Shown here piece by piece: positions 6,242 through 27,642 of a stretch of 64,000 nt of DNA; position 1 is the stretch's first letter; every line of letters begins with the position of its first letter. The stretch is from Cycloclasticus sp. 46_120_T64 (lineage in GTDB: Bacteria; Pseudomonadota; Gammaproteobacteria; Methylococcales; Cycloclasticaceae). The position numbers were made by a program, and so were the translations under genes. A model generated the notes under the pieces. It worked only from the letters and a program-made list of their open reading frames with translations. It searched no databases and had not been told where the DNA came from. Location: positions 1 to 64,000 of the forward strand of contig MAAM01000006.1 of assembly GCA_002162695.1 (NCBI GenBank). The letters are read 5' to 3'.

Positions 6242-6248
6242 ATAAAAC

Positions 6249-7169: not shown

Positions 7170-7189
7170 TTTAGCCGCCCTCGTTTTAT

Positions 7190-7546: not shown

Positions 7547-7555
7547 AGTTATATC

Positions 7556-10084
7556 CTAATCTGCTGACGTTGATGTAAGCTCGTCTTGTCTAGCTGGGCG
7601 TAATTGATCACGTTCAGGAACAAAAACGATTTGACTATCTGGCTTATCGGTATTGATGAAAGTACTGAACTGCTTGGTTCGTTCTTCACTCTCAACCGTT
7701 CTTTTCCACTCACATTCGTAAGCATCTACCACTGTTTGCATCTCTTGCTCGAATGTTTCAGCCAAACCTAATGAGTCTTCGATAACCACTTCACGTAGGT
7801 AGTCCAAACCACCCTCTAAGTTCATCATCCAAGTCGATGTACGCTGTAAACGGTCAGCCGTTTTAACGTAGAACATCAGGAACCTATCGATGTACTTGAT
7901 CATCGTTTCAAAATCCAAACCGGTGGCGAATAGATCTGCGTGGCGAGGTTTCATACCGCCATTACCACAGACATATAGATTCCAGCCATTTTCGGTGGCA
8001 ATAACACCCACGTCCTTACTTTGCGCCTCGGCACATTCACGGGTACAACCCGAAACCGCTAACTTTATTTTATGCGGTGAACGCAAACCTTTATAGCGAT
8101 TTTCTATATCAATCGCCGCACTCACACTATCCGCCAAACCATAACGACACCAGGTATCACCCACACAGGACTTAACCGTCCGTAAAGACTTACCGTAGGC
8201 GTGACCTGTTTCAAAACCGGCATCGATCAGTTCTTTCCAAATAACCGGCAACTGTTCTTGTCTTGCACCAAATAAATCGACCCGCTGACCACCGGTAATT
8301 TTGGTATATAGGTTATATTTCTTACCCACTTGACCGAGCACAATCAATTTATCTGGGGTGATTTCCCCACCGGTAATACGCGGCACAATTGAATAAGTAC
8401 CATTTTTTTGCATGTTCGCTAAATAACGGTCGTTGGTATCTTGCAAAGCTGCGTGCGGCTGATCAAGCACGTATTCATTCCAGCACGAAGCCAGAATAGA
8501 GCCGACGGTTGGCTTACAAATATCACAACCATAACCCTTGCCATGTTTATCGAGCATCTCATCGAAGGTTTTAATCCCTTCAACACGAACCATGTGGTAC
8601 AGCTCCTGACGGGTAAAGGCAAAGTGTTCACATAGATCGGTATTTACATCCATACCCATCTTTTCTAATTCTTTATTCAGTACTTGCCCAACTAAGGCAG
8701 CACAACCACCGCAACCAGTCGCCGCTTTAGTGCACTCTTTTAGTGCACCCATGGTAGTAGAACCATCTGACACAGCTTGACAAATATCACCTTTAGAGAC
8801 GTCATAACATGAACAAATCTGCGCAGCATCAGGCAAAGCCTCAACCCCAAGGCCAGTAGCGCCCGAACCATCGCGTTGCGGCAGAATTAATGAATCCGGG
8901 TATTCTGGTAGCGGAATATCGTTTAATTTCAGTTGTAATAAGTTACCGTAATCAACCGTATCACCAATTAACACCGCACCCAATAAACGCGTATTGTCTT
9001 CACTCACTACAATCTTTTTATAAACGTCGTCAGCACCATTTACATAGGTGTAGACTTTCGCCTTATCAGTAACGCCATGAGCATCACCAATACTGGCCAC
9101 ATCGACGCCCATTAGCTTCAGTTTGGTGCTCATATCGGCACCGGTAAAAGCATTATCTTTTTGCGCCAAGTGATCAGCAACAACTTGAGCCATTTGGTAG
9201 CCTGGAGCTACAAGACCAAAGATCTTACCGTCCCATAAAGCACATTCGCCAATCGCGTAAATATCGTCATCAGAGGTTAGGCAACTATCGTTTACCACAA
9301 TACCACCGCGCTCGCCTAATGCTAGGCCACACTCTGCGGCAATATCATCTCTAGGGCGAATACCTGCTGAAAACAAAATCACGTCTGTTTCAATATGAGA
9401 ACCATCAGCAAAATTCATTCGGTGCACACATTCCTCACCATCGACGATATTTTGCGTGTTCTTCTGCGTATGGACGCTAACATCCAGCTCTTCAATTTTC
9501 TTACGTAGTACCGCACCAGCACCATCATCAATTTGCACCGCCATTAGACGTGGCGCAAATTCAACAACGTGGGTTTTCAACCCAAGATCCTTGAGGGCTT
9601 TTGCCGCTTCAAGACCTAACAAGCCACCACCAATAACCACACCAACTTTTGATGTTTCACCCGCTTCACTTATCTCAATTAAGTCATCAATAGTTCTATA
9701 AACAAAACAGTTATCACGTTCATGCCCAGGAATCGGCGGAACAAACGGAAATGAACCTGTCGCCAATACCAACTTATCATAGGAGATCGACACACCCTTC
9801 TCGGATGTAACGACCTTCGACTTACGATCGATATGCTTCGCACGATCACCCGTATGCACCGTGATATTATTATCTTCGAAGAAATTATCTTCAACGAGCG
9901 ACAAATCATCTTCGCTTTTGCCACTGAAAAATGAAGTTAACTGCACACGGTCGTAGGCCAACCGAGTTTCTTCACAAAAAGTTACTATCTGATAGTCTTG
10001 CATTACATCACTGTTGACCATGGACTGTAGGAACTTATGCCCTACCATGCCATTACCAATAACAACTAACGTCTTCTTACTCAT
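7556..10084 (-). CDS. nirB: NADH-dependent nitrite reductase large subunit NirB
   Basis: The 842-residue protein has the full NirB architecture: an N-terminal FAD/NADH domain starting with VVIGNGMVGHKF, a second dinucleotide fold near residue 145 (GVVIGGGLLGLEAA), BFD-like [2Fe-2S] Cys groups near 423-460 (CSCYDV ... CGGC), and the siroheme/[4Fe-4S] region with SCVGDTWCRYG near 638 and SGCTRECAEAQ near 678. It reduces nitrite to ammonium with NADH. I start at the ATG at 10084 because AGGAATTAG lies just upstream and the N-terminus then matches the family; an in-frame TTG at 10123 would add 13 residues that include the predicted sigma-54 promoter and transcript start. First gene of the leftward nitrate operon. 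Confidence 0.95.
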   Translation of the reverse strand: MSKKTLVVIGNGMVGHKFLQSMVNSDVMQDYQIVTFCEETRLAYDRVQLTSFFSGKSEDDLSLVEDNFFEDNNITVHTGDRAKHIDRKSKVVTSEKGVSISYDKLVLATGSFPFVPPIPGHERDNCFVYRTIDDLIEISEAGETSKVGVVIGGGLLGLEAAKALKDLGLKTHVVEFAPRLMAVQIDDGAGAVLRKKIEELDVSVHTQKNTQNIVDGEECVHRMNFADGSHIETDVILFSAGIRPRDDIAAECGLALGERGGIVVNDSCLTSDDDIYAIGECALWDGKIFGLVAPGYQMAQVVADHLAQKDNAFTGADMSTKLKLMGVDVASIGDAHGVTDKAKVYTYVNGADDVYKKIVVSEDNTRLLGAVLIGDTVDYGNLLQLKLNDIPLPEYPDSLILPQRDGSGATGLGVEALPDAAQICSCYDVSKGDICQAVSDGSTTMGALKECTKAATGCGGCAALVGQVLNKELEKMGMDVNTDLCEHFAFTRQELYHMVRVEGIKTFDEMLDKHGKGYGCDICKPTVGSILASCWNEYVLDQPHAALQDTNDRYLANMQKNGTYSIVPRITGGEITPDKLIVLGQVGKKYNLYTKITGGQRVDLFGARQEQLPVIWKELIDAGFETGHAYGKSLRTVKSCVGDTWCRYGLADSVSAAIDIENRYKGLRSPHKIKLAVSGCTRECAEAQSKDVGVIATENGWNLYVCGNGGMKPRHADLFATGLDFETMIKYIDRFLMFYVKTADRLQRTSTWMMNLEGGLDYLREVVIEDSLGLAETFEQEMQTVVDAYECEWKRTVESEERTKQFSTFINTDKPDSQIVFVPERDQLRPARQDELTSTSAD

Positions 10085-10123
10085 TCTAATTCCTAACCGG
10101 TTGACTGATTTCAAAAAGAGCAA

Positions 10124-10138
10124 GCATATTGCGTGCCA
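10124..10138 (-). promoter_or_regulatory. Sigma-54 promoter for nirB operon
   Basis: Read on the minus strand, TGGCAC-GCAAT-ATGC matches the -24/-12 consensus (TGGCAC-N5-TTGC) with the invariant GG and GC correctly spaced. Transcription would start near 10112, about 28 bases before the nirB ATG. Sigma-54 dependence implies an activator such as NtrC and expression under nitrogen limitation. Confidence 0.72.
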
Positions 10139-10204
10139 TATAAAAAAACAAGGGCAAAGCTATTAATTAACAGGCTTTAACCACACACACGACAATAGTT
10201 AACA

Positions 10205-10220
10205 CAATACCGCCGTATTG
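10205..10220. promoter_or_regulatory. Inverted repeat between nirB and the nitrate transporter gene
   Basis: CAATAC-CGCC-GTATTG is a perfect six-base inverted repeat with a four-base spacer. It lies upstream of both sigma-54 promoters, where a regulator could bind. I do not recognise which protein it would serve. Confidence 0.35.
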
Positions 10221-10240
10221 CTGTGCATAAACAGCCTTAC

Positions 10241-10257
10241 CGCACCATAATGAGGCA
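10241..10257. promoter_or_regulatory. Possible NtrC-like enhancer site
   Basis: The sequence CGCACC-ATAAT-GAGGCA matches 9 of the 12 fixed bases of the NtrC consensus TGCACC-N5-GGTGCA. It lies about 60-80 bp upstream of the transporter-side promoter and roughly 100 bp from the nirB-side promoter, a usual distance for a shared enhancer. The match is imperfect. Confidence 0.35.
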
Positions 10258-10318
10258 GCAGAAAGATAACCAACCCTCCACAAAGCCCGCACCTCGTAAA
10301 AATTAACACCACGACAAA

Positions 10319-10334
10319 TGGCACAATACTTGCT
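10319..10334 (+). promoter_or_regulatory. Sigma-54 promoter for nitrate transporter-kinase operon
   Basis: TGGCAC-AATAC-TTGCT is a full match to the -24/-12 consensus with correct five-base spacing. Transcription would begin near 10345, about 27 bases before the transporter ATG at 10372. Paired with the opposing sigma-54 promoter, it suggests coordinated nitrogen control of uptake and reduction. Confidence 0.8.
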
Positions 10335-10371
10335 TTAAAAGTCGCAATCATAAACCAGAGATGTACAAAAT

Positions 10372-11838
10372 ATGTCAGAGAAATTAAAACTACTATCTTT
10401 AAAAGGCAATATGCGAATCCTGCACACCACCTGGTTCGCTTTCTTCATTAGTTTCATGGTCTGGTTTAACCACGCCCCCCTAATGGCTGTCATACGAGAA
10501 GTTTTTAATTTAAGTAAACAAGAAGTTTCCGTACTGCTAATCCTCAATGTTGCATTAACCATACCCGCGCGTATCGTCGTCGGCATGCTCGTGGATAGTT
10601 ACGGCCCCCGACGCTTATTCTCCGGAATCCTGGTGTTATCTAGCTTTTTATGTCTATTTTTTGCTTGGGCCCAAACTTTCCAACAGCTCGCTCTCGCAAG
10701 GTTCCTACTTGGTTTCGTCGGCGCCGGTTTCGTCGTTGGCATACGCATGATTGGCGAATGGTTTCCAGCACGCCAGACAGGCATCGCTCAGGGCATTTAT
10801 GGTGGCTGGGGCAATTTTGGTTCTGCCGCTTCTGCAATCATCTTACCTAGCCTCGCCCTATGGATCGGTGGTGAAGATGGTTGGCGCTACGCTCTCAGCA
10901 TTACAGCTGTTATCGCATTTTCATACGGCATTTTTTATTACCTAAACGTTACCGACACACCTAAAGGATCTACCTACTTCAAACCCAAAAAAGTGGGTGG
11001 CATGGAGGTTACCAGTAAGGCAGACCTCGTACTTTATATTTTAATGAATCTACCGGTTTACGGCGCACTGGCGTTATTGACTTGGAAACTATCTCCTAGC
11101 GGCATGGCATGGCTCAGCGAACAAACAGCGTTAATCGCTTATATCGCCATTGCCTGCGTGTACACCTACCAAGTGAAACAAATCATCAAAGTTAACAAAG
11201 ACATCTTCACTAAAGAAGTCCCTGAGCTATTTCGCTACAAATTCAAGCAGGTCGCCATCTTAGACCTCGCCTACATGGTTACATTTGGTTCAGAATTAGC
11301 TTTAGTTTCAATGCTGCCACTATTTTATGTCGATATGTTTGACCTATCGCCGATTACAGCCGGCCTATTAGCCGCTATTTACCCAGTAATGAATTTAGTA
11401 GCACGACCAGGCGGTGGTATTTTAAGTGATCGAATCGGCCGTAGAAAATCGCTGATTATCCTATTCAGCGGCATCACCGTTACTTTCTTATTATTAGGCC
11501 AAGTAACCGAAGACTGGGCGGTCATTCTCGTCGTGTCATCCACCATCTTATGCGGTCTTTTTTCCAAGGCAGGCTCCGGTGCTGTTTACGCGATGGTTCC
11601 ACTTATCCAGCGTCGAATGACGGGCCAAGTAGCCGGCATGGTTGGTGCTTACGGTAATGTAGGCGGACTCGTCTTTTTAACCGTCCTATCATTCGTTTCC
11701 CCACAGATATTTTTCATGGTTATTGCCGCCACAGCTGCCGCAGTATTACTCTGCATGATATTCTTACTAGACGAACCTAAGGGACAAACAGCTGAAATTC
11801 TTGAAGATGGTACCGTACAGCTGATAGACGTAACATAA
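10372..11838 (+). CDS. narK: Nitrate/nitrite MFS transporter, NarK/NasA family
   Basis: The 488-residue protein has about 12 hydrophobic helices and both Gly-rich nitrate signature segments of the NNP family: GGWGNFGSAAS near residue 143 and GAYGNVGG near residue 425. The early FNHAPL and the loop motif DSYGPRR also fit major-facilitator nitrate porters. It would import nitrate for the reductase encoded by the divergent operon. It is followed after 11 bp by the phosphatase/kinase gene, and the pair shares the sigma-54 promoter at 10319. The ribosome-binding site is weak (AGAG about ten bases upstream). Confidence 0.92.
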   Translation: MSEKLKLLSLKGNMRILHTTWFAFFISFMVWFNHAPLMAVIREVFNLSKQEVSVLLILNVALTIPARIVVGMLVDSYGPRRLFSGILVLSSFLCLFFAWAQTFQQLALARFLLGFVGAGFVVGIRMIGEWFPARQTGIAQGIYGGWGNFGSAASAIILPSLALWIGGEDGWRYALSITAVIAFSYGIFYYLNVTDTPKGSTYFKPKKVGGMEVTSKADLVLYILMNLPVYGALALLTWKLSPSGMAWLSEQTALIAYIAIACVYTYQVKQIIKVNKDIFTKEVPELFRYKFKQVAILDLAYMVTFGSELALVSMLPLFYVDMFDLSPITAGLLAAIYPVMNLVARPGGGILSDRIGRRKSLIILFSGITVTFLLLGQVTEDWAVILVVSSTILCGLFSKAGSGAVYAMVPLIQRRMTGQVAGMVGAYGNVGGLVFLTVLSFVSPQIFFMVIAATAAAVLLCMIFLLDEPKGQTAEILEDGTVQLIDVT

Positions 11839-11849
11839 TAGGAGATACT

Positions 11850-13556
11850 ATGCAGGCAGACTCGTTGATCGATATTGGCCAGTCATCAGACAAAGGCATC
11901 AAAGATGAAAATCAAGATAGCTACGGCGTTCTATCTCCTGAATCGCCTGCATTAGAACAAAAAGGTATCGCTATCGTAATCGCTGACGGGGTCAGCGGTT
12001 GCGATGCCGGCAAACTGGCTAGCGAATCATGCGTCAAAAGCCTACTCAGTGATTATTACTGCACCCCCGACTCATGGACCGTTAAAACATCGGTACAAAA
12101 AGTACTCATTGCAACTAATCAATGGATGCTGGGTATGGCTCAACAAGGCGGCCATAACCACAAAGGCCTTGCCACCACGATGAGCGCACTAATCGTTAAA
12201 TCATCGACCGTACACCAATTTCATATTGGCGATACCCGCATCTACCGCTTACGTGATAGCAAACTAGAACAACTCACCGATGACCACCGGTTCTGGGTCT
12301 CGAAGGAAAAAAACTACCTTACCCGTGCGATGGGTATCGATCTGCACTTAGAGATTGACTACAGTAATTACCTGCTAGAAGAAGGTGATACTTTCTTATT
12401 CACAACCGATGGAGTTCATGAATTCATTACCGACGATGACATGCAGGCTAAAATCGAGGAGAACCCGCATAATTTAGATCGTGCAGCCCGAAAAATAACC
12501 GCCTTAGCAATGAAGCAGGGTAGTGACGACAACGTAACCTGCCAAGTCGTTCGCTTCAATCAATTACCACAAATAAACGAACAGGAAGTCTACCGAAAAC
12601 TCAGCGAACTCCCCTTCCCTCCCGACTTAAATGCCGGCATGCTACTCGATGGCTACCGCATAGAGCGCGAACTACACGCTAGCGCACGTACCCAGCTATA
12701 TCTTGCAACCGACCAAGAAACCGGCGATCAGGTTGTCTTAAAAACACCTTCAATTAATTATGTCGACGACCCCAGCTATTTAGATATGTTTGTTCATGAA
12801 GAATGGATTGGTCGTCGCCTCGATAATAATCACGTACTTAAAATAGTCGAACAAACAAGAAGCAGGAACTTCCTGTACTACGTCACCGAATATATTGAAG
12901 GACAAACACTTAGACATTGGATGAGTGACAACCCCCAGGCTAACATTCATGATGTCAGAGGGATCATTAGGCAAATAGCCCGTGGTTTACGCGCATTCCA
13001 CAACAAGGAAATGATTCACCAGGACTTAAAACCAGAAAACATCATCATCGATACACAAGGGACCGTCAAAATCATCGACTTCGGCTCCACAAAGGTCGCA
13101 GGAATTGAGGAAATAGCCAGCCCCGTACATAGGCTAAGTATCCTAGGAACTCAGCACTACACCGCACCTGAATACCTCCTAGGGCAAACAGCAAGCCACC
13201 ACTCGGATGCTTTTTCGCTAGCTGTTATTTGCTACGAAATGCTAACGGGCAAACTGCCTTATGGAGAGAAATACGGGGAAAAGGCATTAAGTAAACTTCA
13301 TTACAAATCAATATCCGAATACAACAGCGACGTGCCCTTATGGGTAGACGGCGCACTAAGGAAATCACTTAGCAAGAATTCGGCTCATCGATATGATGAC
13401 ATCGCTGAATTAATTCACGACTTAGCACATCCTAATAAACAATTCACCAACCCTCAGCAAAAACCACTATTAGAACGAAACCCGCTGATATTCTGGAAAA
13501 CAATCGCTATCACAAGCCTCATGATTAACATCGTACAGGTTATTTTAGAACGCTAA
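11850..13556 (+). CDS. PP2C-type phosphatase / Ser-Thr protein kinase fusion
   Basis: The 568-residue protein has an N-terminal PP2C phosphatase (metal-binding motifs SDKGIKDENQD, IADGVSG, GDTRIYRL, TTDGVHEFI and GSDDNVT, residues ~5-235) followed by a Hanks-type kinase domain (~265-525). The kinase catalytic loop is HQDLKPEN near residue 389 and the DFG motif is near 409. A single C-terminal helix (about 548-565) suggests membrane attachment. A good GGAG site precedes the ATG, 11 bp after the transporter stop. Pseudomonads carry a similar Ser-Thr kinase gene beside their nitrate assimilation genes, so the placement is conserved. A natural target would be the transporter or a nitrogen regulator, but that is inference. 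Confidence 0.88.
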   Translation: MQADSLIDIGQSSDKGIKDENQDSYGVLSPESPALEQKGIAIVIADGVSGCDAGKLASESCVKSLLSDYYCTPDSWTVKTSVQKVLIATNQWMLGMAQQGGHNHKGLATTMSALIVKSSTVHQFHIGDTRIYRLRDSKLEQLTDDHRFWVSKEKNYLTRAMGIDLHLEIDYSNYLLEEGDTFLFTTDGVHEFITDDDMQAKIEENPHNLDRAARKITALAMKQGSDDNVTCQVVRFNQLPQINEQEVYRKLSELPFPPDLNAGMLLDGYRIERELHASARTQLYLATDQETGDQVVLKTPSINYVDDPSYLDMFVHEEWIGRRLDNNHVLKIVEQTRSRNFLYYVTEYIEGQTLRHWMSDNPQANIHDVRGIIRQIARGLRAFHNKEMIHQDLKPENIIIDTQGTVKIIDFGSTKVAGIEEIASPVHRLSILGTQHYTAPEYLLGQTASHHSDAFSLAVICYEMLTGKLPYGEKYGEKALSKLHYKSISEYNSDVPLWVDGALRKSLSKNSAHRYDDIAELIHDLAHPNKQFTNPQQKPLLERNPLIFWKTIAITSLMINIVQVILER

Positions 13557-13799: not shown

Positions 13800-14417
13800 T
13801 TACTTACTACGCGATAAAAATTTATTTGAAATTACCAATAAAATTACCATCAAAGTGAATAAGTAAAAAACCCAACTATATTCTTCAAAAACACTAGCCT
13901 CATTGAGTTCCTCTTTAGACTTAATTGAGAACTCTAAAAAACCAGCCCTGTGCTTGTGCTCTTCCGTGTGCATATGTGACTCAGCAGCTTGCAAACTAGC
14001 TGAAATTCGATAAATACCTGGCACTAGGTCAGACAAATCGAAATTAGCGCTCCCTGTCTCATACATCTTAGCTGGGATTGATATGAACGAATCAAACGTT
14101 TCATTAGTCTTCATTTCAATATCAATTTTAACCGGAACAGTTCGCAGTACCTCGTCAATAATGTCTAATACAAAAATCGTATTAGCCGTTGCAGCAATAT
14201 CCTTACAGAGTTCCTCACGGTTACTTTCGGTCGGTTGGTATGCAGTAAAGTGCATCATATGACCTTCAGCGCGAAAAGAACATTCATCTTTCTCAGCTGC
14301 CCTCCCACCGTGAGCATACGCAGCAGGTGACATTGACATTGACATTAACGCAATCAGTAGCCCTATTAAAGCGACCACACCAGGTCTAAAAAACAGACCT
14401 GATGTAGTAGCATTCAT
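13800..14417 (-). CDS. pmoD: PmoD/AmoD-like periplasmic copper protein of the CuMMO operon
   Basis: From the ATG at 14417 the product is 205 residues with a signal peptide (cleavage likely after AYA, residue 35). The core has the family segments HMMHFTAYQP (~53-62), a Cys at 71, and TIFVLDIIDEVLRTVPV (~80-96), the pattern I associate with PmoD/AmoD. Two Cys (46 and 71) and Met/His residues could bind copper, and a His-rich loop (HMHTEEHKH) follows. A C-terminal membrane helix ends in SRSK. PmoD proteins bind copper and are needed for particulate monooxygenase function in methanotrophs. The frame could open 30 residues earlier inside pmoB, but only the internal Met gives a clean signal peptide. 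Last gene of the operon. Confidence 0.8.
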   Translation of the reverse strand: MNATTSGLFFRPGVVALIGLLIALMSMSMSPAAYAHGGRAAEKDECSFRAEGHMMHFTAYQPTESNREELCKDIAATANTIFVLDIIDEVLRTVPVKIDIEMKTNETFDSFISIPAKMYETGSANFDLSDLVPGIYRISASLQAAESHMHTEEHKHRAGFLEFSIKSKEELNEASVFEEYSWVFYLFTLMVILLVISNKFLSRSK

Positions 14418-14436
14418 AGTTTTGGCTATAAGATTA

Positions 14437-15684
14437 TTACTTGTCAAAGAAAGTAGGCAATATTTGCCCATAGATTTCTGAAGTATATCTATTACCTTCT
14501 TCATCAAAGAAGAAGATTAAAGCACCATAACTACTGTCTGGATCATTCAGCAAGCTGCTCAATCTTTCAGTTTCCCAAGCAACATCAGTCGCCTCCATTC
14601 TCAAACGACGGCTTTCACCCGGTTGAATAGGAGAATCGTCAGATAAAATCAATCCTTTATTAGGTACTAATTCCGCAGGATAACCTTCATCAACACCCGC
14701 CATAGCAATTGGTAACTTCTTGTTAACAAACCTAAGGTTTGAAGACATGAACTCACCAATTTGAATTACCTTGCCAGTGTTATTGGTGATTGTCGCGTCA
14801 ATGGTTATTGTACGACCTGGTAAATAGTATTCAGACGTATGGTTTTTAACTTCAACTAAACCTTCTTCAGGGTTTGGTACATATTGCACCTCTACCTTAC
14901 CGCCCTGTAAAGGAACCGTACGTGGATAGGTTTTCTCAGTAATTTGATTAGCTACAATCAGTACTGTGATGATGAACACTAGCAGAATACCGCCGACCAT
15001 CATGTCAGTTCTAGTAATTAGCGCAGACCAATTATTATCTTTAACCCATAAGAAGCGATTAATCAATAAAGGACGTCTAACCCACCAAGCCAACCATAAC
15101 ACCGCAAGAATAGCCCAGAAAGCGTGCCATTTGACAACGTTTTCAACGCCATACGTTTCTAGATCTTCAATCACAATACCTGTTCTGGTTTCAACACCAT
15201 AAAGAAAATCATTAGCATCGCCAGCGATATTCATCCAGATACCAGGACCCACAAGACCACCAGCAGACTCAACGTTGAACATTGGGTGAACATGGTGACG
15301 ACCTGGGATACGTGCTTTAAGGACAACCTTAAAGTCATATACACGGCCAACTTCTACGCCTGTTGATTGAATCATAGGAACATCATTCAACCAAGTTCCA
15401 ACCCTAACAAAAACAGGACCTGGAGTCGCGTTAGCTAAGAACACGGTATCAGGCATGTTAATTTGTTCAGGCCAGCGAGAGAAAAAATGAACCTTACCGC
15501 TCATCGTTACTTCTTCGTTAACTTGCACAGTTGAATCATTTTCTATTGACCATTTAATGTCATACCAATGAAGAGTTTTCATGCGTAGGAATGGTTCTTG
15601 GTTTCTTTCACCGTGCGCCAAGGCAAGCCCAGCAACGCTGAATAAAACCAACATCATTACTACTTTAATGTATAAGCGCGTCAT
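14437..15684 (-). CDS. pmoB: Copper membrane monooxygenase subunit B (PmoB/AmoB type)
   Basis: From the ATG at 15684 (GAGG nine bases upstream) the product is 415 residues. A signal peptide ends ALA at residue 23, leaving His24 as the mature N-terminus (HGERNQEPFLRM), the position of the CuB ligand His33 in Methylococcus PmoB. The other CuB ligands are His131 and His133 in GRHHVHPMFNV. Two membrane helices follow (about 190-208 and 232-250) and a second cupredoxin-like domain makes up the C-terminus. The chain is full length. Together with PmoA and PmoC it forms the membrane hydroxylase. All CuB ligands are intact, so the subunit should be functional. Confidence 0.95.
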   Translation of the reverse strand: MTRLYIKVVMMLVLFSVAGLALAHGERNQEPFLRMKTLHWYDIKWSIENDSTVQVNEEVTMSGKVHFFSRWPEQINMPDTVFLANATPGPVFVRVGTWLNDVPMIQSTGVEVGRVYDFKVVLKARIPGRHHVHPMFNVESAGGLVGPGIWMNIAGDANDFLYGVETRTGIVIEDLETYGVENVVKWHAFWAILAVLWLAWWVRRPLLINRFLWVKDNNWSALITRTDMMVGGILLVFIITVLIVANQITEKTYPRTVPLQGGKVEVQYVPNPEEGLVEVKNHTSEYYLPGRTITIDATITNNTGKVIQIGEFMSSNLRFVNKKLPIAMAGVDEGYPAELVPNKGLILSDDSPIQPGESRRLRMEATDVAWETERLSSLLNDPDSSYGALIFFFDEEGNRYTSEIYGQILPTFFDK

Positions 15685-15685
15685 T

Positions 15686-16495
15686 TTATTTTGCCTCATC
15701 TTTATCTGCCTCTAGACCTACAAAAGTTTTCAATTGATTTGGGATAGTACCTAAGTTACTTAGGAACTGACCAATTCTCCACCACATGTAAAATAAGATC
15801 ATACATACGAAAGCCGAGAAGAAAGTAGACACTAAAGTAGACTCACCACCGAAGGTTCTAAGCGTTCCACGTTCAATAAAACGTAAATACTCAGGCGTCG
15901 CAGTACGAGTAAACGAATAGCCAATAACGTCAGCAACATTCACTAGCTGCTCTATATGAACAACAGGTACGTGATATGGAGCTAGAATTGGCCAGTTAGC
16001 TGGTGCAAAAGCCATTGCTACAGCTCCGCCGCCGAAAACACTTGCTAGAAAGACGTTTCTAAACAACATATAGAACAAGTCCATTAACATAAGTCCAGGC
16101 AATACGATCGCAGGCCAAACCAAGCTATATGGGAAGTACGCCCATAAATGGAAACCAGAAATACGACTAACCCATTCGCCAATCACCAAACATAATCCAC
16201 AAACTGTACCCGCAATTGGTAAACCTAGTTTATGCATTAATGGATAAGATAAAGCAGCTGGAATAATAACAAGAATCATCGGGGTTAAGGTAACCCAGTA
16301 CATTCTATCCTTCCAATCTACCCAAAAATCCCAATCTCCGGCGGTTAACATAAAGTGGATATGAAATGCCGCAGTAACCGCAAACAACAACACAACAACA
16401 ACAATCCAGTCAAAATTCCGCACAATCTTTGCTGCATCAGAATTTGGAACTGATATAGCCTTAAGAAGCTTAGCTTCTTCAGCAGTTAAACTCAT
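15686..16495 (-). CDS. pmoA: Copper membrane monooxygenase subunit A (PmoA/AmoA type)
   Basis: The 269-residue, highly hydrophobic protein has about seven membrane helices and family segments such as the early HFMLTAGDWDFWVDWKDR and the later FMLFRNVF-like and FIERGTLRTFGG stretches. The last of these (RGTLRTFG) and GDWDFW are hallmark motifs of PmoA/AmoA proteins. Length fits AmoA (about 275) and PmoA (about 247). The gene overlaps the alternative upstream start of pmoB but not its preferred start. AGGAAT lies upstream of the ATG. The sequence would allow phylogenetic placement against methane, ammonia and hydrocarbon monooxygenases, which I cannot compute here. Confidence 0.95.
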   Translation of the reverse strand: MSLTAEEAKLLKAISVPNSDAAKIVRNFDWIVVVVLLFAVTAAFHIHFMLTAGDWDFWVDWKDRMYWVTLTPMILVIIPAALSYPLMHKLGLPIAGTVCGLCLVIGEWVSRISGFHLWAYFPYSLVWPAIVLPGLMLMDLFYMLFRNVFLASVFGGGAVAMAFAPANWPILAPYHVPVVHIEQLVNVADVIGYSFTRTATPEYLRFIERGTLRTFGGESTLVSTFFSAFVCMILFYMWWRIGQFLSNLGTIPNQLKTFVGLEADKDEAK

Positions 16496-16522
16496 AGTTT
16501 ATTCCTATAATATATTAAAAAA

Positions 16523-16547
16523 CCCTTAAGCCAAGACGACTTAAGGG
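16523..16547 (-). terminator. Intrinsic terminator between pmoC2 and pmoA
   Basis: On the minus strand CCCTTAAG and CTTAAGGG form a perfect eight-base stem with a nine-base loop, followed directly by six U. It sits inside the operon, 17 bases after the pmoC2 stop and 27 bases before the pmoA ATG. It would terminate part of the transcripts and let pmoC2 be made in excess of pmoAB. Confidence 0.75.
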
Positions 16548-16564
16548 ATGTGAAGTATGAAAAA

Positions 16565-17344
16565 TTAAGAGGTTAACTCGCCTTTTTCATTTAACACTTT
16601 TGGTAGTAGATCGCTAGACATATAACCTAGAATCTGAACCAATAAACCACCTAGAGCGATAATTGACCAACCAAAGAAAACAAACCCCCAGTGTAATGGC
16701 ACAGTAAAGTACTCCTCCATCAACCAGAAGGCATGCCCCCATTCGTTATAACCAACTGTTGGTAACAACATAAATGGACCACAAACTACTAGAAGTAAAG
16801 GCACTGAGATCTTTTCAGCGAAAAATGGTAGGCGTGTAATAGCGTAGAAAAACAAACTAAAACCAATAATAATAAATACAGGCATACACATATAAAACAA
16901 GAAAATATGACTAGGTGTAAAGCTTGTATCTCTTACCACTGTTTGGTGCCATGACGCATCTTGCTCAGCATAAAAACTACCTGCAAAATAGAATGAAAAA
17001 GCATATACCACTAGCATGCTAATCCAGAACATCATTTTATTTAGCTCTTCTCTCTTAGAAAGCTGATTTAGGTGCGTATCACGTGTCAACCACAAATAAC
17101 CTACAAAAACAAAAAACAAAATAGGTTCAATAATCAACTGAGCCCAAAACACCTTCATCCAATACACATCAAAAAGTGGATCAGACGCATCCAAACCATA
17201 ATCCCATGCAGCCCACTGCTGATACCAACGAGCGGTCAGCATAATGGCAGTAATAGCTAAAAGGCCAAGAATCATTGGCTTGAAGTTAATTTTCCACGGT
17301 TCAATCTTTTCTGATTTCACCACATCGTTCTGTACAACAGACAT
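16565..17344 (-). CDS. pmoC: Copper membrane monooxygenase subunit C, operon copy
   Basis: The ATG at 17344 has a perfect AAGGAG seven bases upstream and gives 259 residues; the open frame extends 14 residues further without a ribosome site. About six membrane helices are visible. The CuC ligands are Asp129, His133 and His146 (spacing 4 and 13, as in Methylococcus Asp156/His160/His173) and the CuD ligands Asn200, His204 and His218 (spacing 4 and 14). It is highly similar to the upstream copy from residue 39 on, while the N-terminal ~15 and C-terminal ~20 residues differ. It directly precedes pmoA and is the likely partner in the complex. Confidence 0.95.
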   Translation of the reverse strand: MSVVQNDVVKSEKIEPWKINFKPMILGLLAITAIMLTARWYQQWAAWDYGLDASDPLFDVYWMKVFWAQLIIEPILFFVFVGYLWLTRDTHLNQLSKREELNKMMFWISMLVVYAFSFYFAGSFYAEQDASWHQTVVRDTSFTPSHIFLFYMCMPVFIIIGFSLFFYAITRLPFFAEKISVPLLLVVCGPFMLLPTVGYNEWGHAFWLMEEYFTVPLHWGFVFFGWSIIALGGLLVQILGYMSSDLLPKVLNEKGELTS

Positions 17345-17452
17345 ACTATTCTCCTTATATTTATAATAGTAACCGAACTGTAACACCAGATAATAATCAC
17401 CTCAAGAACATTTAATGAGCTGAATGATATGCTGTGGTTTCGATAAGTCTGA

Positions 17453-17488
17453 AATTAGCCCCTAAACCCTATTGTTCAGGGGCTAATT
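17453..17488. other. Strong stem-loop between the two pmoC genes
   Basis: AATTAGCCCCT and AGGGGCTAATT form an 11-base perfect stem around a 14-base loop. No U-run follows on either strand, so it is not a classic terminator. It lies in the 270-base gap between pmoC1 and pmoC2 and could protect or process the pmoC1 message. Confidence 0.6.
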
Positions 17489-17614
17489 AGCAAACATCAA
17501 ATAATTCAGCGTTTATAACTCCAGTAAAAACAATGCATTTTCTCGGCATTTAGTGCTGTTTAGTAATAACTATATATATAAGTAGATTAAAGAAGCTTAG
17601 TATGTTGAAAGGAG

Positions 17615-18391
17615 TTATTTAATTAACTTCCCTTGCTCGTCTGTTACCTTGCCAAGAAGCTCTACCAAGTAGCCCATAACTTGTAATAACAAACCGCCTA
17701 GAGCAATAATTGACCAGCCAAAAAACACAAAGCCCCAGTGTAAAGGTACCGTGAAGTATTCTTCCATTAGCCAAAAAGCGTGCCCCCATTCGTTATACCC
17801 AACTGTAGGCAACAACATAAATGGGCCACAGACTACCAAAATTAATGGAATTGATATCTTTTCAGCAAAAAATGGAATTCGTGTAATCGCATAAGTAAAT
17901 AAACTAAAACCAATAATTATATATACCGGCATACATAAATAGAATACGAAAATATGGCTCGGAGTGAAGCTAGTATCTCTGACGACTGTTTGATGCCAAG
18001 ATGCATCGCCTTCAGCAAAAATGCTACCTGCAAAGTAAAATGCGAAACCATACACAACCAAACAAGACAGCCAAAGCATGAGTCTTTCTAGTTCTAGCCT
18101 AGGTGTTAAATTGTTGAGGTGCTTATCCCTAGTAAGCCAAAGGTAACCTACTAATGCGACAAAAATTATAGGTTCTATGATAATTTGCGCCCAGAAAACG
18201 CTCATCCAGTAAGTATCAAAATCCGGGTTTGTCGCATCTAAACCATACTCCCAAGCGGCCCACTGCTGATACCAACGCGCCGTAAAGAATATTATACTTA
18301 GTATCACCAAACCTACCGCCATAGGCTTTAGGTTCATTTTAAAAGGCTTCGCTGCCTGCGAAGCGAGTACTTCTTCCTCAATTGCCGCCAT
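17615..18391 (-). CDS. pmoC: Copper membrane monooxygenase subunit C, upstream extra copy
   Basis: I choose the ATG at 18391 because AAGGAG lies seven bases before it; the ATG at 18397 would be only one base from that site. The 258-residue product keeps every predicted copper ligand (Asp129, His133, His146, Asn200, His204, His218). It has its own sigma-70-like promoter at 18457-18485 and a 5' stem-loop. Additional pmoC or amoC copies are known in methanotrophs and ammonia oxidisers, usually unlinked or in extra operons; here the extra copy heads the cluster in tandem. It differs from the second copy mainly at the ends and in helix 3. Confidence 0.94.
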   Translation of the reverse strand: MAAIEEEVLASQAAKPFKMNLKPMAVGLVILSIIFFTARWYQQWAAWEYGLDATNPDFDTYWMSVFWAQIIIEPIIFVALVGYLWLTRDKHLNNLTPRLELERLMLWLSCLVVYGFAFYFAGSIFAEGDASWHQTVVRDTSFTPSHIFVFYLCMPVYIIIGFSLFTYAITRIPFFAEKISIPLILVVCGPFMLLPTVGYNEWGHAFWLMEEYFTVPLHWGFVFFGWSIIALGGLLLQVMGYLVELLGKVTDEQGKLIK

Positions 18392-18422
18392 TGTCATTCT
18401 CCTTAATTATTTTTTATAGTGC

Positions 18423-18621: not shown

Positions 18622-19770
18622 ATGGAGCACGATTTAGAAAGCGAACAAATGATTTTGGATGCCGTTGATAAGTTTTTAGTTAAAATCAAACCATCCGTTC
18701 GCCAATTAGAAGCAGACGACGAATACCCTGAAGAAATTGTTGAACAAATGAAAGAAATGGGACTTTTTGGCGCTGTTATCGATCAAGAATATGGTGGTCT
18801 CGGACTATCTGTTAGTACCTACGCAAAAATCGTTGAAAAAATTGCCTGCGTATGGATGTCTTTAACCGGCGTCTTTAATTCACACTTAATTATGGCCATG
18901 TCTGTACAACGCTTTGGCACCGAACAACAAAAAAGAAAATGGTTACCCAAATTTGCTACTGGTGAAGTCCGTGGCGCGTTAGCACTCACTGAACCGAATT
19001 GTGGAACAGACCTACAAGCTGTAAAGACAACCGCCGTACTTGAAGGTGATGAATACGTCATCAATGGCGCAAAAACTTGGATTACCAATAGCCTACACGG
19101 CAGTTGCTTCGCGTTACTGGTTAAAACTGATCCCACTGCCAAGCCTGCACACAAAGGTATGAGCTTGTTCATCGCCCCTAAGGGTGAAGGCTTCGTCATG
19201 GGTAACAAACTAAAAAAGCTGGGTTATAAGGGTATCGATACCGCTGAGTTCTTTTTAGAAGACTACCGCCTGCCGAAAGAAAACCTGATCAGCCTAGAAG
19301 AAGGTCACGGCTTACAACACGCACTGGGTGCGCTAGCATTAGGCCGCATTAACGTCGCATCACGCGGTATTGGTGTCGCCTCTGCTGCGCTTAATGATTC
19401 TATTGAGTACTCACAGCAGCGTAAAACATTTGGCAAGCCTATTTGCCAGCACCAAGCTATTCAGTTTTACCTTGCTGACATGGCAACACGTGTAGAGGCA
19501 GCCCGCCTACTCGTTCAATCTGCCGCTACCGCGTTTGATAAAGGCGAACGCTGCGATATGGAAGCAGGGATGGCAAAACTCTACGCCACCGAAGCGGCTA
19601 TGAGTAATTCTGCCGAAGCCCTACGAATTCACGGTGCCTATGGTTACTCCACCGAGTTCAACGTAGAACGTTATTACCGAGACGCTCCATTATTAGCGAT
19701 TGGCGAAGGCACTAATGAATTACAACGTATCATCATTGCCAAACAATTAGTCGAGCAAAATCCGATTTAA
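18622..19770 (+). CDS. Acyl-CoA dehydrogenase
   Basis: The 382-residue protein has the three-domain acyl-CoA dehydrogenase fold with ALTEPNCGTDLQAV (FAD/substrate region, ~115-130), WITNS near 144, and the C-terminal segment HGAYGYSTEFNVERYYRDA. The catalytic Glu is in GEGTNELQR at about residue 362, the position used by short- and medium-chain enzymes. It introduces the 2,3 double bond of an acyl-CoA and passes electrons to ETF. It is transcribed divergently from the CuMMO operon with a back-to-back promoter. That placement suggests, but does not prove, that it handles an acyl-CoA derived from the monooxygenase product. Confidence 0.87.
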   Translation: MEHDLESEQMILDAVDKFLVKIKPSVRQLEADDEYPEEIVEQMKEMGLFGAVIDQEYGGLGLSVSTYAKIVEKIACVWMSLTGVFNSHLIMAMSVQRFGTEQQKRKWLPKFATGEVRGALALTEPNCGTDLQAVKTTAVLEGDEYVINGAKTWITNSLHGSCFALLVKTDPTAKPAHKGMSLFIAPKGEGFVMGNKLKKLGYKGIDTAEFFLEDYRLPKENLISLEEGHGLQHALGALALGRINVASRGIGVASAALNDSIEYSQQRKTFGKPICQHQAIQFYLADMATRVEAARLLVQSAATAFDKGERCDMEAGMAKLYATEAAMSNSAEALRIHGAYGYSTEFNVERYYRDAPLLAIGEGTNELQRIIIAKQLVEQNPI

Positions 19771-19779
19771 CCTTTTAAT

Positions 19780-19812
19780 ACGCCGAGTACTTATATATTA
19801 AGTACTCGGCGT
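19780..19812 (+). terminator. Terminator after acyl-CoA dehydrogenase
   Basis: ACGCCGAGTACTT and AAGTACTCGGCGT make a perfect 13-base stem with a seven-base loop, beginning 10 bases after the stop codon. The U-run is short (GUUU). Confidence 0.75.
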
Positions 19813-19910
19813 GTTTAGCTAATATCGCCTAATTAATAAATATCCACTCTGGCTTAAACCAGATTTACCTTACAATACCCACTTTCATTCTCACCAAACA
19901 CAACACGCTA

Positions 19911-20768
19911 ATGTCTAATCAACAATTTGAAGGAACTAGTAACTACGTTGCTACCGAAGAACTTAAAATGGCAGTTAATGCTGCGCTGACCCTAGAACGC
20001 CCATTATTAATTAAAGGCGAACCAGGAACAGGTAAAACCCAACTTGCGTTAGAAGTTGCAAAGTCACTCGATGCTCCGCTTATTGAATGGCACATAAAAT
20101 CAACGACTAAAGCACACCAAGGCTTATACGAATATGATGCCGTTTCCCGTCTACGAGATTCACAACTAGGTGATGAACGTGTACACGACATTTCAAACTA
20201 CATCGTCAAAGGTAAAATCTGGGAAGCCTTTCATTCAGAAAAACGTGCGATTTTATTGATTGATGAAATCGATAAGGCCGATATCGAATTTCCTAATGAC
20301 TTATTACAAGAACTCGACCGTATGGAGTTTTTCGTTTACGAAACTCAAGAGTTGGTTAAAGCAAAACATAGACCGCTAATCATTATTACCAGCAATAATG
20401 AAAAAGAACTACCGGATGCTTTTTTAAGACGTTGTTTTTTCCATTACATCCGTTTCCCAGAAATGGAAACCATGCGAGAAATTGTTGAGGTACATTACCC
20501 AGATCTTAAAAAGGACTTATTAGCCGAGGCGCTTGGTCTGTTCTTCCAAGTCAGAGAAGCTAATGGCCTGAAGAAAAAACCCTCCACCTCTGAACTATTA
20601 GATTGGATTAAACTATTATTATCTGAGGATTTAACCGCTGAGGCATTGCGCGAGCAAAGCACCACTAATATCCTGCCTAAAATGCACGGTGCCCTGTTGA
20701 AAAACGAACAAGATGTTCATCTGTTTGAGCGCTTAGCCTTTTTAAATAAACGCAAACAAAATAGTTAA
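19911..20768 (+). CDS. MoxR-family AAA+ ATPase
   Basis: The 285-residue protein has Walker A GEPGTGKT near residues 37-44, Walker B ILLIDEIDKAD near 115, and a sensor region IITSNNEKELPDAFLRRC near 155. This is the compact MoxR form that pairs with CoxE-like VWA proteins. MoxR ATPases with VWA partners act as chaperones for metalloenzymes such as methanol dehydrogenase, CO dehydrogenase and NO reductase. The VWA partner gene starts 10 bp downstream. It is a different branch from the RavA at 612-2138. The client is unknown; the CuMMO is the nearest metalloenzyme. Confidence 0.87.
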   Translation: MSNQQFEGTSNYVATEELKMAVNAALTLERPLLIKGEPGTGKTQLALEVAKSLDAPLIEWHIKSTTKAHQGLYEYDAVSRLRDSQLGDERVHDISNYIVKGKIWEAFHSEKRAILLIDEIDKADIEFPNDLLQELDRMEFFVYETQELVKAKHRPLIIITSNNEKELPDAFLRRCFFHYIRFPEMETMREIVEVHYPDLKKDLLAEALGLFFQVREANGLKKKPSTSELLDWIKLLLSEDLTAEALREQSTTNILPKMHGALLKNEQDVHLFERLAFLNKRKQNS

Positions 20769-20778
20769 TTAATTCACG

Positions 20779-22008
20779 ATGTTCATCCATTTCTTTTTCG
20801 ACTTACGCAAAGCAGGCATTCCGGTCACGATTGGCGAGTTACTATCTCTACTCAGCGCCCTACAAGTAAAAATAGCCTCCTTTAATATTAACCAGTTCTA
20901 TTATTTGTCTCGTACCGCCTTGGTCAAAGACGAACGTTTCTATGATCGTTTTGACCAAGTGTTCAGTTCAACCTTTAAAGGGCTTGAGACTGACAGCCTC
21001 GAAGAGGTTTTAGGACAAATACCCGAGGAATGGCTGCAAAAGAAGGCTGAAAAATTCCTTAGCGATGAAGAGAAAAAGAAAATTGAGTCTCTCGGTGGCT
21101 GGGAGGAACTCATGGAAACCTTAAAAAAGCGTCTCGAAGAGCAAAAAGAAGAACACCATGGCGGCAATAAATGGATTGGAACCGGTGGCACCTCACCTTT
21201 TGGTGCCTATGGCTACAACCCAGAAGGGGTTCGCATTGGTCAACACGAATCGAGACACCGTAGTGCGGCAAAGGTCTGGGATAAACGAGAGTTTCGTAAC
21301 TTAGACGATAGTGTCGAACTTAATACGCGTAATATCAAGGTAGCTCTACGCCGCTTAAGAAAATTTGCCCGCCAAGGTTCACCGGATGTCTTAGATATGG
21401 ATGACACCATTCGCTCCACAGCGGCCAATGCGGGCTACCTTGACCTTAAGATGGTACCTGAACGTCACAACGCCATTAAAGTGCTACTACTGCTCGATGT
21501 AGGCGGCTCGATGGATGATCATATTCGTATCTGTGAGGAATTATTCTCTGCCGCAAAAACTGAATTCAAACACCTAGAATATTATTATTTCCATAATTTC
21601 ACCTACGAGCACCTTTGGAAAGACAATACTCGACGGCACACTAACGTCACCACCACCATGGATATCATTAATCGATACCCTAGCGACTATAAATTAATTT
21701 TTGTCGGTGACGCCAGCATGAGTCCATACGAAATCACCTACCCAGGCGGCTCTGTCGAACACTGGAATAAAGAAACCGGCGCAACCTGGTTCCAGCGGCT
21801 GACTAATGCCTTCCCACATACCGTATGGCTGAACCCCGACGCCGAAAAAAATTGGGATCGAAAGCCCTCCAATCAGATCACCCGAGAACTGATGAATGAT
21901 CGGATGTATCCGCTAACACTCGCCGGTTTAGACACCGCGATTAAGACCCTATTAAAAGCCCCCAAGCCGACTATTCCTGTCGCTGAACTAGACACTGAAG
22001 AGTCCTAA
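20779..22008 (+). CDS. CoxE-like VWA-domain protein, partner of MoxR
   Basis: The 409-residue protein has an N-terminal helical region with a charged Glu/Lys-rich stretch (~95-125), a Gly-rich linker (GGNKWIGTGGTSPFGAYGYN) and a C-terminal VWA fold. The metal-binding MIDAS motif appears as LLLDVGGSMDD near residue 238, a slightly altered DxSxS (Gly in place of the first Ser). A Thr and an Asp (VGDASMSP) in the second half complete the site. It should act with the ATPase encoded just upstream. A strong terminator follows. Confidence 0.82.
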   Translation: MFIHFFFDLRKAGIPVTIGELLSLLSALQVKIASFNINQFYYLSRTALVKDERFYDRFDQVFSSTFKGLETDSLEEVLGQIPEEWLQKKAEKFLSDEEKKKIESLGGWEELMETLKKRLEEQKEEHHGGNKWIGTGGTSPFGAYGYNPEGVRIGQHESRHRSAAKVWDKREFRNLDDSVELNTRNIKVALRRLRKFARQGSPDVLDMDDTIRSTAANAGYLDLKMVPERHNAIKVLLLLDVGGSMDDHIRICEELFSAAKTEFKHLEYYYFHNFTYEHLWKDNTRRHTNVTTTMDIINRYPSDYKLIFVGDASMSPYEITYPGGSVEHWNKETGATWFQRLTNAFPHTVWLNPDAEKNWDRKPSNQITRELMNDRMYPLTLAGLDTAIKTLLKAPKPTIPVAELDTEES

Positions 22009-22028
22009 GCGCTAAAGCTACCGCTAAA

Positions 22029-22060
22029 AAAAGGGCGTGCATTTAATGGCACGCCCTTTT
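22029..22060. terminator. Bidirectional terminator
   Basis: AAAAGGGCGTGC and GCACGCCCTTTT form a perfect 12-base stem with an eight-base loop. A-rich and T-rich flanks serve both strands, between the convergent VWA and PEBP genes. Confidence 0.85.
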
Positions 22061-22079
22061 CTTATTACACCAACGAGAG

Positions 22080-22631
22080 TTAACGCCCGTAATAGCCAAC
22101 CAGCGATGCCTTAGCAATCGTATGGAAACCTAGGTAGAAACCAACTAAAGCAGGAGTAGCATCCGCCTGCAGACCCAAACTAGCAACTTTCAGCGCGTGT
22201 ACAGTGAAAATATATTGATGTGATGCCGTTCCCTCTGGAGGACAAGGACCACCATAACCCGCCGTACCAAAATCAGTTGGGTTTTGAATGCTGCCCTTAG
22301 GTGCGATAGCCGCCGCTATATTACCGGCATTAGCTTTTAAACCTGTTTCACTCGCCGCAATATCATAAACCTGCCAATGCCACCAGCCACTACCCGTAGG
22401 TGCATCAGGGTCATACATGGTTACGACAAAACTTTTTGTACCCTCGGGGGCATTCTGCCAATTCAACGCCGGCGAGATATTTTCACCCTTGCAGCCAAAA
22501 CCTGAAAACACCTGTTTATTAGTCAACTGCCCCTGAATATCTGGACTCGTTAATACGAAGCCATCCGCTTGCACCGATGCAGTCACACTAACTAATAAAG
22601 CGATGCATAATGCTCTTGTTATACGTTTCAT
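22080..22631 (-). CDS. Secreted PEBP (YbhB/YbcL) family protein
   Basis: The 183-residue protein begins with a signal peptide (cleavage after VQA, ~22). The mature part has the phosphatidylethanolamine-binding-protein signatures: FTSPD-like FVLTSPDIQG, FGCKGENISPAL, MYDPDAPTGSGWWHW and YGGPCPPEG. Members bind small anions or phospholipid headgroups; the bacterial role is poorly known. AAGGAG precedes the ATG. The gene is not obviously part of an operon with its neighbours, although a flavin reductase-like gene lies 13 bp upstream. Confidence 0.85.
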   Translation of the reverse strand: MKRITRALCIALLVSVTASVQADGFVLTSPDIQGQLTNKQVFSGFGCKGENISPALNWQNAPEGTKSFVVTMYDPDAPTGSGWWHWQVYDIAASETGLKANAGNIAAAIAPKGSIQNPTDFGTAGYGGPCPPEGTASHQYIFTVHALKVASLGLQADATPALVGFYLGFHTIAKASLVGYYGR

Positions 22632-22644
22632 TCCTTTCTCCTTA

Positions 22645-23262
22645 TTATTTATCTTTCGTTATCGAACCTAGTTTCATATCGAATAATGAATCGACATGAC
22701 AATAACTATGCCCGCCTAAACGACCAATCAGGTCTAGGGCCTTCATATCGACATATCGACCATCAAAGAGCTGATCCGCGATATGACAATACACGACCTC
22801 CGCTATCACCAAACCACACTCTTTCGGACTACCTTTATTTATCTCTACAACCTGTTTTAAGCGACACTCCAAACTCACCGGCGACTCCAGCACCCGTGGT
22901 GGACTAATACGTTCACACGCCGCCTCAGTTAAGCCAGCCACGGTAAATTCATTTACATCCTTGGGGTAATCTAGCGCCGTCAAGTTCATCGCCTCGGCAA
23001 TATCTCGGTTCACCATATTAACCACGAATTCCCCCGTCTGTTCTATATTTAACAGGCTATCTTTTTCCTTAGCTCCAGAGAACCGAGCAATCGATACACT
23101 GATCGTTGGCGGATCATAACAAACACCATTAAAAAATGAAAATGGTGCTAAATTCACCTCACCCGCAGGCGATTTTGAGGAAATAAAAGCAATCGGCCGA
23201 GGAATAATCACTGCTTTCAGAATATTGTAAAACTTCTGCTGGTTTTTAGGATCAATTTCCAT
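22645..23262 (-). CDS. Flavin reductase-like (flavoredoxin/DIM6) protein
   Basis: The 205-residue protein has the split-barrel FMN-binding fold typical of the flavin reductase-like family: the segments VIIPRPIAFISSKSP, NLAPFSFFNGVCYDPPTISVS and GEFVVNMV. Such proteins reduce flavin with NAD(P)H or bind FMN as flavoredoxins. It sits between the PEBP gene and the terminator of the acyl-CoA operon, so it is probably transcribed separately from the latter. The partner enzyme is unknown. Confidence 0.82.
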   Translation of the reverse strand: MEIDPKNQQKFYNILKAVIIPRPIAFISSKSPAGEVNLAPFSFFNGVCYDPPTISVSIARFSGAKEKDSLLNIEQTGEFVVNMVNRDIAEAMNLTALDYPKDVNEFTVAGLTEAACERISPPRVLESPVSLECRLKQVVEINKGSPKECGLVIAEVVYCHIADQLFDGRYVDMKALDLIGRLGGHSYCHVDSLFDMKLGSITKDK

Positions 23263-23305
23263 ACTTAGCCCCTAGTTTAATTAAGATAATTTACAGGCAA
23301 AAAAA

Positions 23306-23325
23306 AGGCCTCACGAATGAGGCCT
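23306..23325 (-). terminator. Intrinsic terminator of the acyl-CoA operon
   Basis: AGGCCTC and GAGGCCT form a seven-base stem with a six-base loop, followed on the minus strand by eight U. It begins about 18 bases after the last gene of the operon. Confidence 0.85.
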
Positions 23326-23343
23326 CTTAACGATCAATTCAGC

Positions 23344-24147: not shown

Positions 24148-24193
24148 TTTTATATCCTTAATTATTAATAATCAAATAACCCCCTTAATGGGA

Positions 24194-25870: not shown

Positions 25871-25887
25871 TTAAAAACCCCTATTTA

Positions 25888-26796: not shown

Positions 26797-26827
26797 TTTT
26801 AAATCTCCTTAATCTATTATTTATGTC

Positions 26828-27628: not shown

Positions 27629-27642
27629 AATATAATCCTTTG

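Follow-up and report, generated by a model that had tools for sequence, protein, structure and literature searches.

A copper membrane monooxygenase operon with two pmoC genes

The stretch of DNA analyzed here, the window, comprises bases 1-64000 of contig C14 in the genome of Cycloclasticus sp. 46_120_T64 (G000; 2.21 Mb, 15 contigs, 99.97% complete), and our subject is an operon for a copper membrane monooxygenase (CuMMO) that lies on its minus strand. An earlier note on this DNA, made from the sequence alone, had described the operon as pmoC-pmoC-pmoA-pmoB-pmoD, and both the open reading frames and the subunit family matches bear this out:

13800-18397, minus strand: whole operon pmoC-pmoC-pmoA-pmoB-pmoD (open reading frames and family matches)
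17615..18397, minus strand: pmoC1, the operon's first gene, 260 amino acids; PF04896, 295.5 bits; CuC and CuD motifs
16565..17386, minus strand: pmoC2, 273 amino acids as listed from GTG; PF04896, 286.1 bits; CuC and CuD motifs
15686..16495, minus strand: pmoA, 269 amino acids; PF02461, 276.8 bits
14437..15699, minus strand: pmoB, 420 amino acids; PF04744, 440.6 bits; CuB ligands
13800..14507, minus strand: pmoD-like gene, from alignment with other PmoD-like genes

Judged by eye, an internal ATG is a likelier start for pmoC2 than the listed GTG, and the true start of the pmoD-like gene probably lies inside the listed frame, because a start at the listed TTG would make it overlap the end of pmoB. 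Neither Pfam nor NCBIfam gave a match to the PmoD-like protein at E 0.001, but it could be aligned with ten other PmoD-like genes, two cysteines being present in all 11 sequences and an HGG motif in 10 of the 11. The poorest E-value among the four subunit matches (two PmoC, PmoA and PmoB) was 2.7e-82, so that chance is excluded, and the operon's subunits were also aligned with chains of solved structures of particulate methane monooxygenase (pMMO) and ammonia monooxygenase (AMO).

The copper ligand motifs, each of which we take to belong to the site named here, comprise His29, His136 and His138 of PmoB in the numbering of the reading frame (CuB), Asp131/His135/His148 (CuC) and Asn202/His206/His220 (CuD) of PmoC1, and Asp143/His147/His160 (CuC) and Asn214/His218/His232 (CuD) of PmoC2. 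The ligands of all three sites, which the earlier note had reported, are thus present, those of CuC and CuD in both PmoC copies; its His24, His131 and His133 of PmoB are the same residues numbered with the sixth residue as the first. C, A and B subunits over the Pfam cut-off in one operon, with ligand motifs kept, place the locus in the CuMMO superfamily. It is the complete structural gene set of a copper membrane monooxygenase, and judged by its sequence this gene set probably works.

The two PmoC proteins are 72% identical, and in each of the six relatives compared the single PmoC resembled PmoC2 more than PmoC1. Among 52 loci whose DNA extends at least 1.2 kb upstream of pmoC (48 distinct pmoA sequences), only the window had two pmoC genes in one operon, and the titles and abstracts of the literature searched held no account of such a tandem, which is weak evidence of absence. 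We considered gene conversion between the copies and rejected it: their DNA identity reaches 83% in codons 200-240, but it is 83-90% there in pairs with relatives, and conservation therefore suffices as an explanation. It is conceivable, though doubtful, that the PmoC proteins are non-redundant and give two hydroxylase forms, the ligands being kept and the active-site subunit otherwise changed, so that PmoC exchange would tune substrate range or the affinity for copper or oxygen.

Three types of CuMMO in the genus and their phylogeny

The genome contains two PmoA matches, that of the window and one on contig C10, which are 44% identical to each other. Across 18 genomes of the genus, this one included, a PmoA match was found in 12; the counts across the genus are lower bounds because several genomes without a match are incomplete. 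The PmoA tree splits the genus into type A (the window's), with operon orthologs in 8 of the 18 genomes including its own, type B (that of contig C10, 8 genomes) and type C (2 genomes). PmoA of the window is 70-76% identical to the PmoA of the seven other type A genomes. The loci of the other types are as follows:

L003:10998-18479 (contig C10): type B operon pmoCABD, then multicopper-oxidase-like, cupredoxin-like, DedA-like and methyltransferase genes (labels partly by eye)
L161:7698-12443 and L162:1732-6257 (genomes G008 and G011): type C operon, very divergent, with two PmoD-like genes; long branch, tree place unsure

The gene order of the type B operon is the same in G008 (L160) and in the Cycloclasticus symbiont of Bathymodiolus heckerae (L070), and type B is perhaps a separate isoenzyme serving another substrate or concentration range. 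Another G011 locus, L111, is found letter for letter within LWTL01000113.1 (L070) of the same symbiont; as G011 belongs to the window's genus, the window is assigned to Cycloclasticus on this ground. No match to a 16S gene was found in the genome of the window.

We built a tree from PmoA only (57 rows) and another from PmoC, PmoA and PmoB together (46 rows, 914 columns), both with an actinobacterial Hmo (L168) as outgroup and both without Haliea and ET-SHO/ET-HIRO sequences among their rows. In both, the window fell into the genus clade with 100/100 support. The three-subunit tree recovered type A as a clade of seven rows (100/100), whose longest end branch (0.28) belongs to the window, nested in an 18-row clade with uncultured lineages (99/98); type C joins this larger clade at 86/86 on a long branch. 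The methanotroph genera, their unnamed kin and a Beijerinckiaceae row formed a separate clade of ten rows (100/100), and the rows of ammonia-oxidizing bacteria (AOB) formed a third. Forcing type A into one clade with the ten methane-type rows cost 156 log-likelihood units and was rejected by the approximately unbiased (AU) test (p-AU 3.75e-43), as was one clade with the five AOB rows (64 units, p-AU 0.00182). A grouping with methane or with ammonia oxidizers was what the earlier note had named as counting against its inference.

Genes for ammonia, C1 and alcohol oxidation

An automatic annotation might label the enzyme an ammonia monooxygenase. PmoB exceeds the cut-off of the AmoB_BACT equivalog (505 versus 336 bits), as it does that of the joint methane/ammonia model (405.9 versus 394.9 bits), and AmoA_BACT (285 versus 290) as well as AmoC_BACT (318 and 309 versus 319) fall below theirs by little. 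Because of the PmoB score, an organism in which no hydroxylamine oxidoreductase (HAO) was found may be labeled an ammonia oxidizer. The HAO search, run at first without any matching control, was repeated with two ammonia oxidizers: an HAO-type cytochrome was found in none of three Cycloclasticus genomes (G000, G008 and G011), whereas the model matched in both ammonia oxidizers. Together with the rejection of a clade with the AOB rows this makes ammonia oxidation most improbable.

With regard to C1 metabolism, fae was not found in this genome by a model that matches two of 14 controls, over cut-off in one of them, and no hps match exceeded the cut-off of 200 bits, one partial match scoring 28.6 bits and 12 of the 14 controls matching weakly too. 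Two pyrroloquinoline quinone (PQQ) dehydrogenases, encoded on contigs C8 and C14, exceed the cut-off of the methanol/ethanol family. Compared with solved structures, the C8 alcohol dehydrogenase (ADH) scored 879 bits with the quinoprotein ethanol dehydrogenase 6zcv, presumably a PedE/PedH-type enzyme of Pseudomonas putida, and at most 371 bits with chains named methanol dehydrogenase; for the C14 enzyme the ethanol type gave 430 bits versus 364 for methanol dehydrogenase. The earlier note had seen no methanol dehydrogenase, hydroxylamine oxidoreductase or C1 gene in the window; in the genome no match for HAO, fae or hps exceeds its cut-off and both PQQ dehydrogenases are closest to enzymes of ethanol type, and a relative, G008, carries a class III dehydrogenase (see below). 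The surroundings of the C8 enzyme are these:

L166:6527-17530 (contig C8): PQQ-ADH gene, divergent from an MBL-fold gene followed by prpE-like, prpB, prpC, acnD and prpF

The adjoining genes of the methylcitrate (propionate) pathway, PrpB, PrpC, AcnD and PrpF, all exceed their cut-offs; the PrpE-like ligase has its top score on the propionate model, yet below cut-off, and passes only the general acetate--CoA ligase model. Around the C8-type ADH of nine other genomes of the genus the MBL-fold gene adjoins in all nine, and prpE-prpB-prpC-acnD-prpF follows in six (G008, G011, G012, G016, G007 and G004). Of the remaining three, G015 has prpE to acnD with prpF not listed, the G017 stretch ends within prpE and the G009 contig ends at the MBL gene. 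The ADH itself is cut short in G017 and interrupted by a stop in G004.

A C2-C5 alkane as the most likely substrate

From the AU-tested phylogeny, the failure of HAO, fae and hps to exceed cut-off, the ethanol-type PQQ dehydrogenases and the propionate genes elsewhere in the genome, we infer, with a probability of roughly 0.8, that the operon encodes a particulate hydrocarbon monooxygenase (pHMO) of Cycloclasticus, which most likely hydroxylates C2-C5 alkanes. In the proposed scheme PmoC and PmoA, in the membrane, would use O2 to hydroxylate a C2-C5 n-alkane, or the corresponding alkene, at the copper site of PmoC, and PmoD would help in copper supply. Oxidation of the alcohol in the periplasm could then fall to the PQQ dehydrogenases together with an aldehyde-oxidizing enzyme; ligases, the PrpE-like one among them, would activate the acid to the acyl-CoA for beta-oxidation, odd chains ending in propionyl-CoA, which would enter the methylcitrate cycle. 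This is in line with published work on Cycloclasticus pHMO: in its available part, PMC12510462 reports Cycloclasticus phmo peptides and several phmo copies in n-pentane blooms and no PQQ-ADH that groups with methanol enzymes. Likewise, the accessible part of PMC11409719 cites stable isotope probing with uptake of 13C-ethane and propane, not of methane.

The main competing explanation is that Cycloclasticus is a methanotroph and uses the type A or the type B operon as its methane monooxygenase. PMC11409719, in the part available, describes genes for methane oxidation in every Cycloclasticus that it examined and assigns the genus to Methylococcales. Type B PmoA outscores type A on the Pfam AMO model (357 versus 277 bits), and in G008 genes suggestive of formaldehyde oxidation are situated downstream of the type A operon:

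L153:1714-6232 (G008): methanethiol oxidase, MauG/MbnH-like and class III formaldehyde dehydrogenase genes

The class III (glutathione-formaldehyde) dehydrogenase (724 bits, cut-off 544) and the methanethiol oxidase (739 bits, cut-off 650) are both encoded 2-7 kb from that operon, and because the latter adjoins, the formaldehyde dehydrogenase is explicable without methane. Given in addition the rejected clade with methane-type rows, the results for fae and hps, the affinity of the PQQ dehydrogenases to ethanol-type enzymes and the isotope data just cited, we regard methane as an unlikely substrate.

Several points nevertheless weigh against a C2-C5 alkane. We know of no measured activity for any row of the 18-row clade. 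The negative C1 results cover fae and hps; no search of this genome was aimed at formate dehydrogenase, the tetrahydrofolate and glutathione routes of formaldehyde oxidation or the serine cycle, and the class III dehydrogenase of G008 weakens the C1 argument to that extent. An ethanol-type dehydrogenase may accept methanol too. Moreover, the intact C8 PQQ-ADH goes with type B pmoA rather than with the window's type A operon: in post hoc comparisons that ignore kinship, it was found in 6/6 genomes with type B pmoA versus 0/4 without among those at least 90% complete (p 0.005), and in 7/8 versus 2/10 among all 18. The association of the intact gene with any pmoA was not significant (6/8 versus 0/2 near-complete genomes, p 0.13). 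The type B operon could itself oxidize methane. The sole measured alkane enzyme in the trees is the distant actinobacterial Hmo (L168, strain NBB4), with substrates taken from the available part of PMC4678205. As far as the parts at hand go, PMC12510462 treats the oxidation of n-pentane by phmo as hypothetical, its action never having been demonstrated, and PMC11409719 claims methane oxidation for every Cycloclasticus it examined.

Neighboring genes and the site of the operon

The operon is flanked by the following genes, none of them part of the system:

18622..33030: acyl-CoA block with acyl-CoA dehydrogenases, an AAA/VWA pair, enoyl-CoA hydratases, an acyl-CoA ligase, short-chain dehydrogenases/reductases (SDRs) and a CaiB-type CoA transferase
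4037..13556: other flank, with molybdopterin reductase, NirD, NirB and NarK (nitrate assimilation) and a PP2C-kinase fusion

The acyl-CoA neighbors pointed out earlier are real from 18622 on and confined to one side. On the other, NarK, NirB and NirD exceed their model cut-offs, and the models nearest to the molybdopterin reductase are formate dehydrogenase (576 bits) and NasC (515 bits), both below cut-off. A gene for a fusion of PP2C phosphatase and Ser/Thr kinase (11850-13556) is situated between the nitrate transporter gene and the pmo operon.

The acyl-CoA block recurs, with matched genes in the same order and 66-94% identity, in G008, G004 and G017, the last of which has no PmoA match. 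G008 and G004 have an extra SDR; in G004 no second enoyl-CoA hydratase is listed, one of the SDRs is incomplete and nothing matches the window gene at 22080. The ligase of the block was found in 10 of the 18 genomes (E 1e-100). It lies on the operon contig in G008 and G007, at distances of about 72 and 91 kb, and on other contigs in G005, G004, G013 and G006; in the type A genome G012 it was not found. None of the seven other type A genomes shows the operon adjoining the block. In G007 the operon adjoins ETF-like and acyl-CoA genes (labels by eye) different from those of the window's block, which calls for some caution.

In most type A relatives the operon occupies another site. CitMHS, mobB and moeA are found on one side of it in five of seven (G005, G013, G008, G004 and G012) and genes for a GTPase and DbpA on the other in four (G005, G004, G006 and G012); on its far side the operon of G008 is followed by different genes. 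The citMHS-to-DbpA site holds the operon in six of the seven, some flanks ending with the contig. The same stretch occurs without the operon on contig C4 of this genome and in G014, and a lone gene remains beside citMHS:

L219:10278-10997, L220:280-840 and L153:11835-12392: lone PmoD-like gene adjoining citMHS, also in G011, where no type A PmoA was found

This lone gene is perhaps the footprint of a lost operon. As the usual site is empty here and the flanks differ, the operon has a different location from that in most relatives, and its adjacency to the acyl-CoA block is not a conserved feature. The empty site and the long end branch of the window would also suit a relic or a silent spare copy left after relocation; with five open frames and copper ligand motifs that are preserved, those of both PmoC copies included, we consider this quite improbable.

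The genus comparison (18 genomes for ligase and PmoA, the seven type A flanks, three block loci and the empty sites) led us to reject the neighborhood as evidence for the substrate. The earlier note had drawn on the neighbors to infer the class of substrate, and this argument fails, since the block is conserved in G017 without PmoA and is apart from the operon in G008 and G004. It is a separate conserved block that would serve general acid catabolism and not be dedicated to the operon, beside which its genes seem to lie by chance of position. The MoxR-VWA pair, which also occurs near actinobacterial hmo, was rejected as a CuMMO maturation system for the window because it travels with the block in G008, G017 and G004. 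The same distribution bears on a small alicyclic substrate such as cyclopentane or cyclohexane, whose pathway the adjoining SDR and ligase would complete. The best equivalog of the SDR at 29856-30626 is hydroxycyclohexanecarboxylate dehydrogenase, whose score of 255 bits falls far short of the cut-off of 400, and no listed cyclohexane-type equivalog exceeds its cut-off. Such a substrate is therefore very unlikely, and of the earlier proposal, a C2+ alkane or a small alicyclic, we retain the alkane.

Comparison with known systems

The window's operon shares subunits, copper ligand motifs and CAB order with Methylococcus-type pMMO (pmoCAB; PDB 3rgb, 7s4h); it differs in its separate clade and in a genome without fae or hps over cut-off. 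Subunits and ligand motifs are likewise those of bacterial amoCAB, and the PmoB exceeds the AmoB_BACT model, but the clade is again separate and HAO has no match. With the hmoCAB of Mycolicibacterium chubuense NBB4 (L168), near which an AMP-binding protein, an NDMA-dependent methanol dehydrogenase and a MoxR/VWA pair are annotated, it shares the character of a non-methane CuMMO, the PmoA proteins being 37% identical over 75% of the window's sequence. Methane or ammonia oxidation called from pmoABC alone can thus mislead, and the common shortcut of taking beta-oxidation genes beside such an operon for evidence of its substrate is corrected here.

In their available parts, two papers of 2024 disagree on methane oxidation by Cycloclasticus, PMC11409719 arguing for it and PMC12510462 giving evidence against. 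A near-complete genome that combines two divergent types of CuMMO with ethanol-type PQQ dehydrogenases, one of them next to propionate genes, and yields no fae, hps or HAO over cut-off speaks for C2+ alkanes, and most likely marine Cycloclasticus start with this enzyme on short-chain petroleum compounds, for example ethane, propane, butane or pentane. The closest likeness is to the Cycloclasticus phmo in metagenome-assembled genomes from seep and open-ocean n-pentane studies, which, in the available part of PMC12510462, comprise several divergent CuMMO operons per genome of the same genus, a PQQ-ADH not of methanol type and methylcitrate enzymes; the clades named there are unknown, group X and group X-like, and the window differs by its two PmoC genes in one operon. 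The pHMO type is already known from Cycloclasticus and the window adds another such operon, what is new being the two pmoC genes, the shifted operon site and the evidence bearing on the methane-oxidation claim of 2024.

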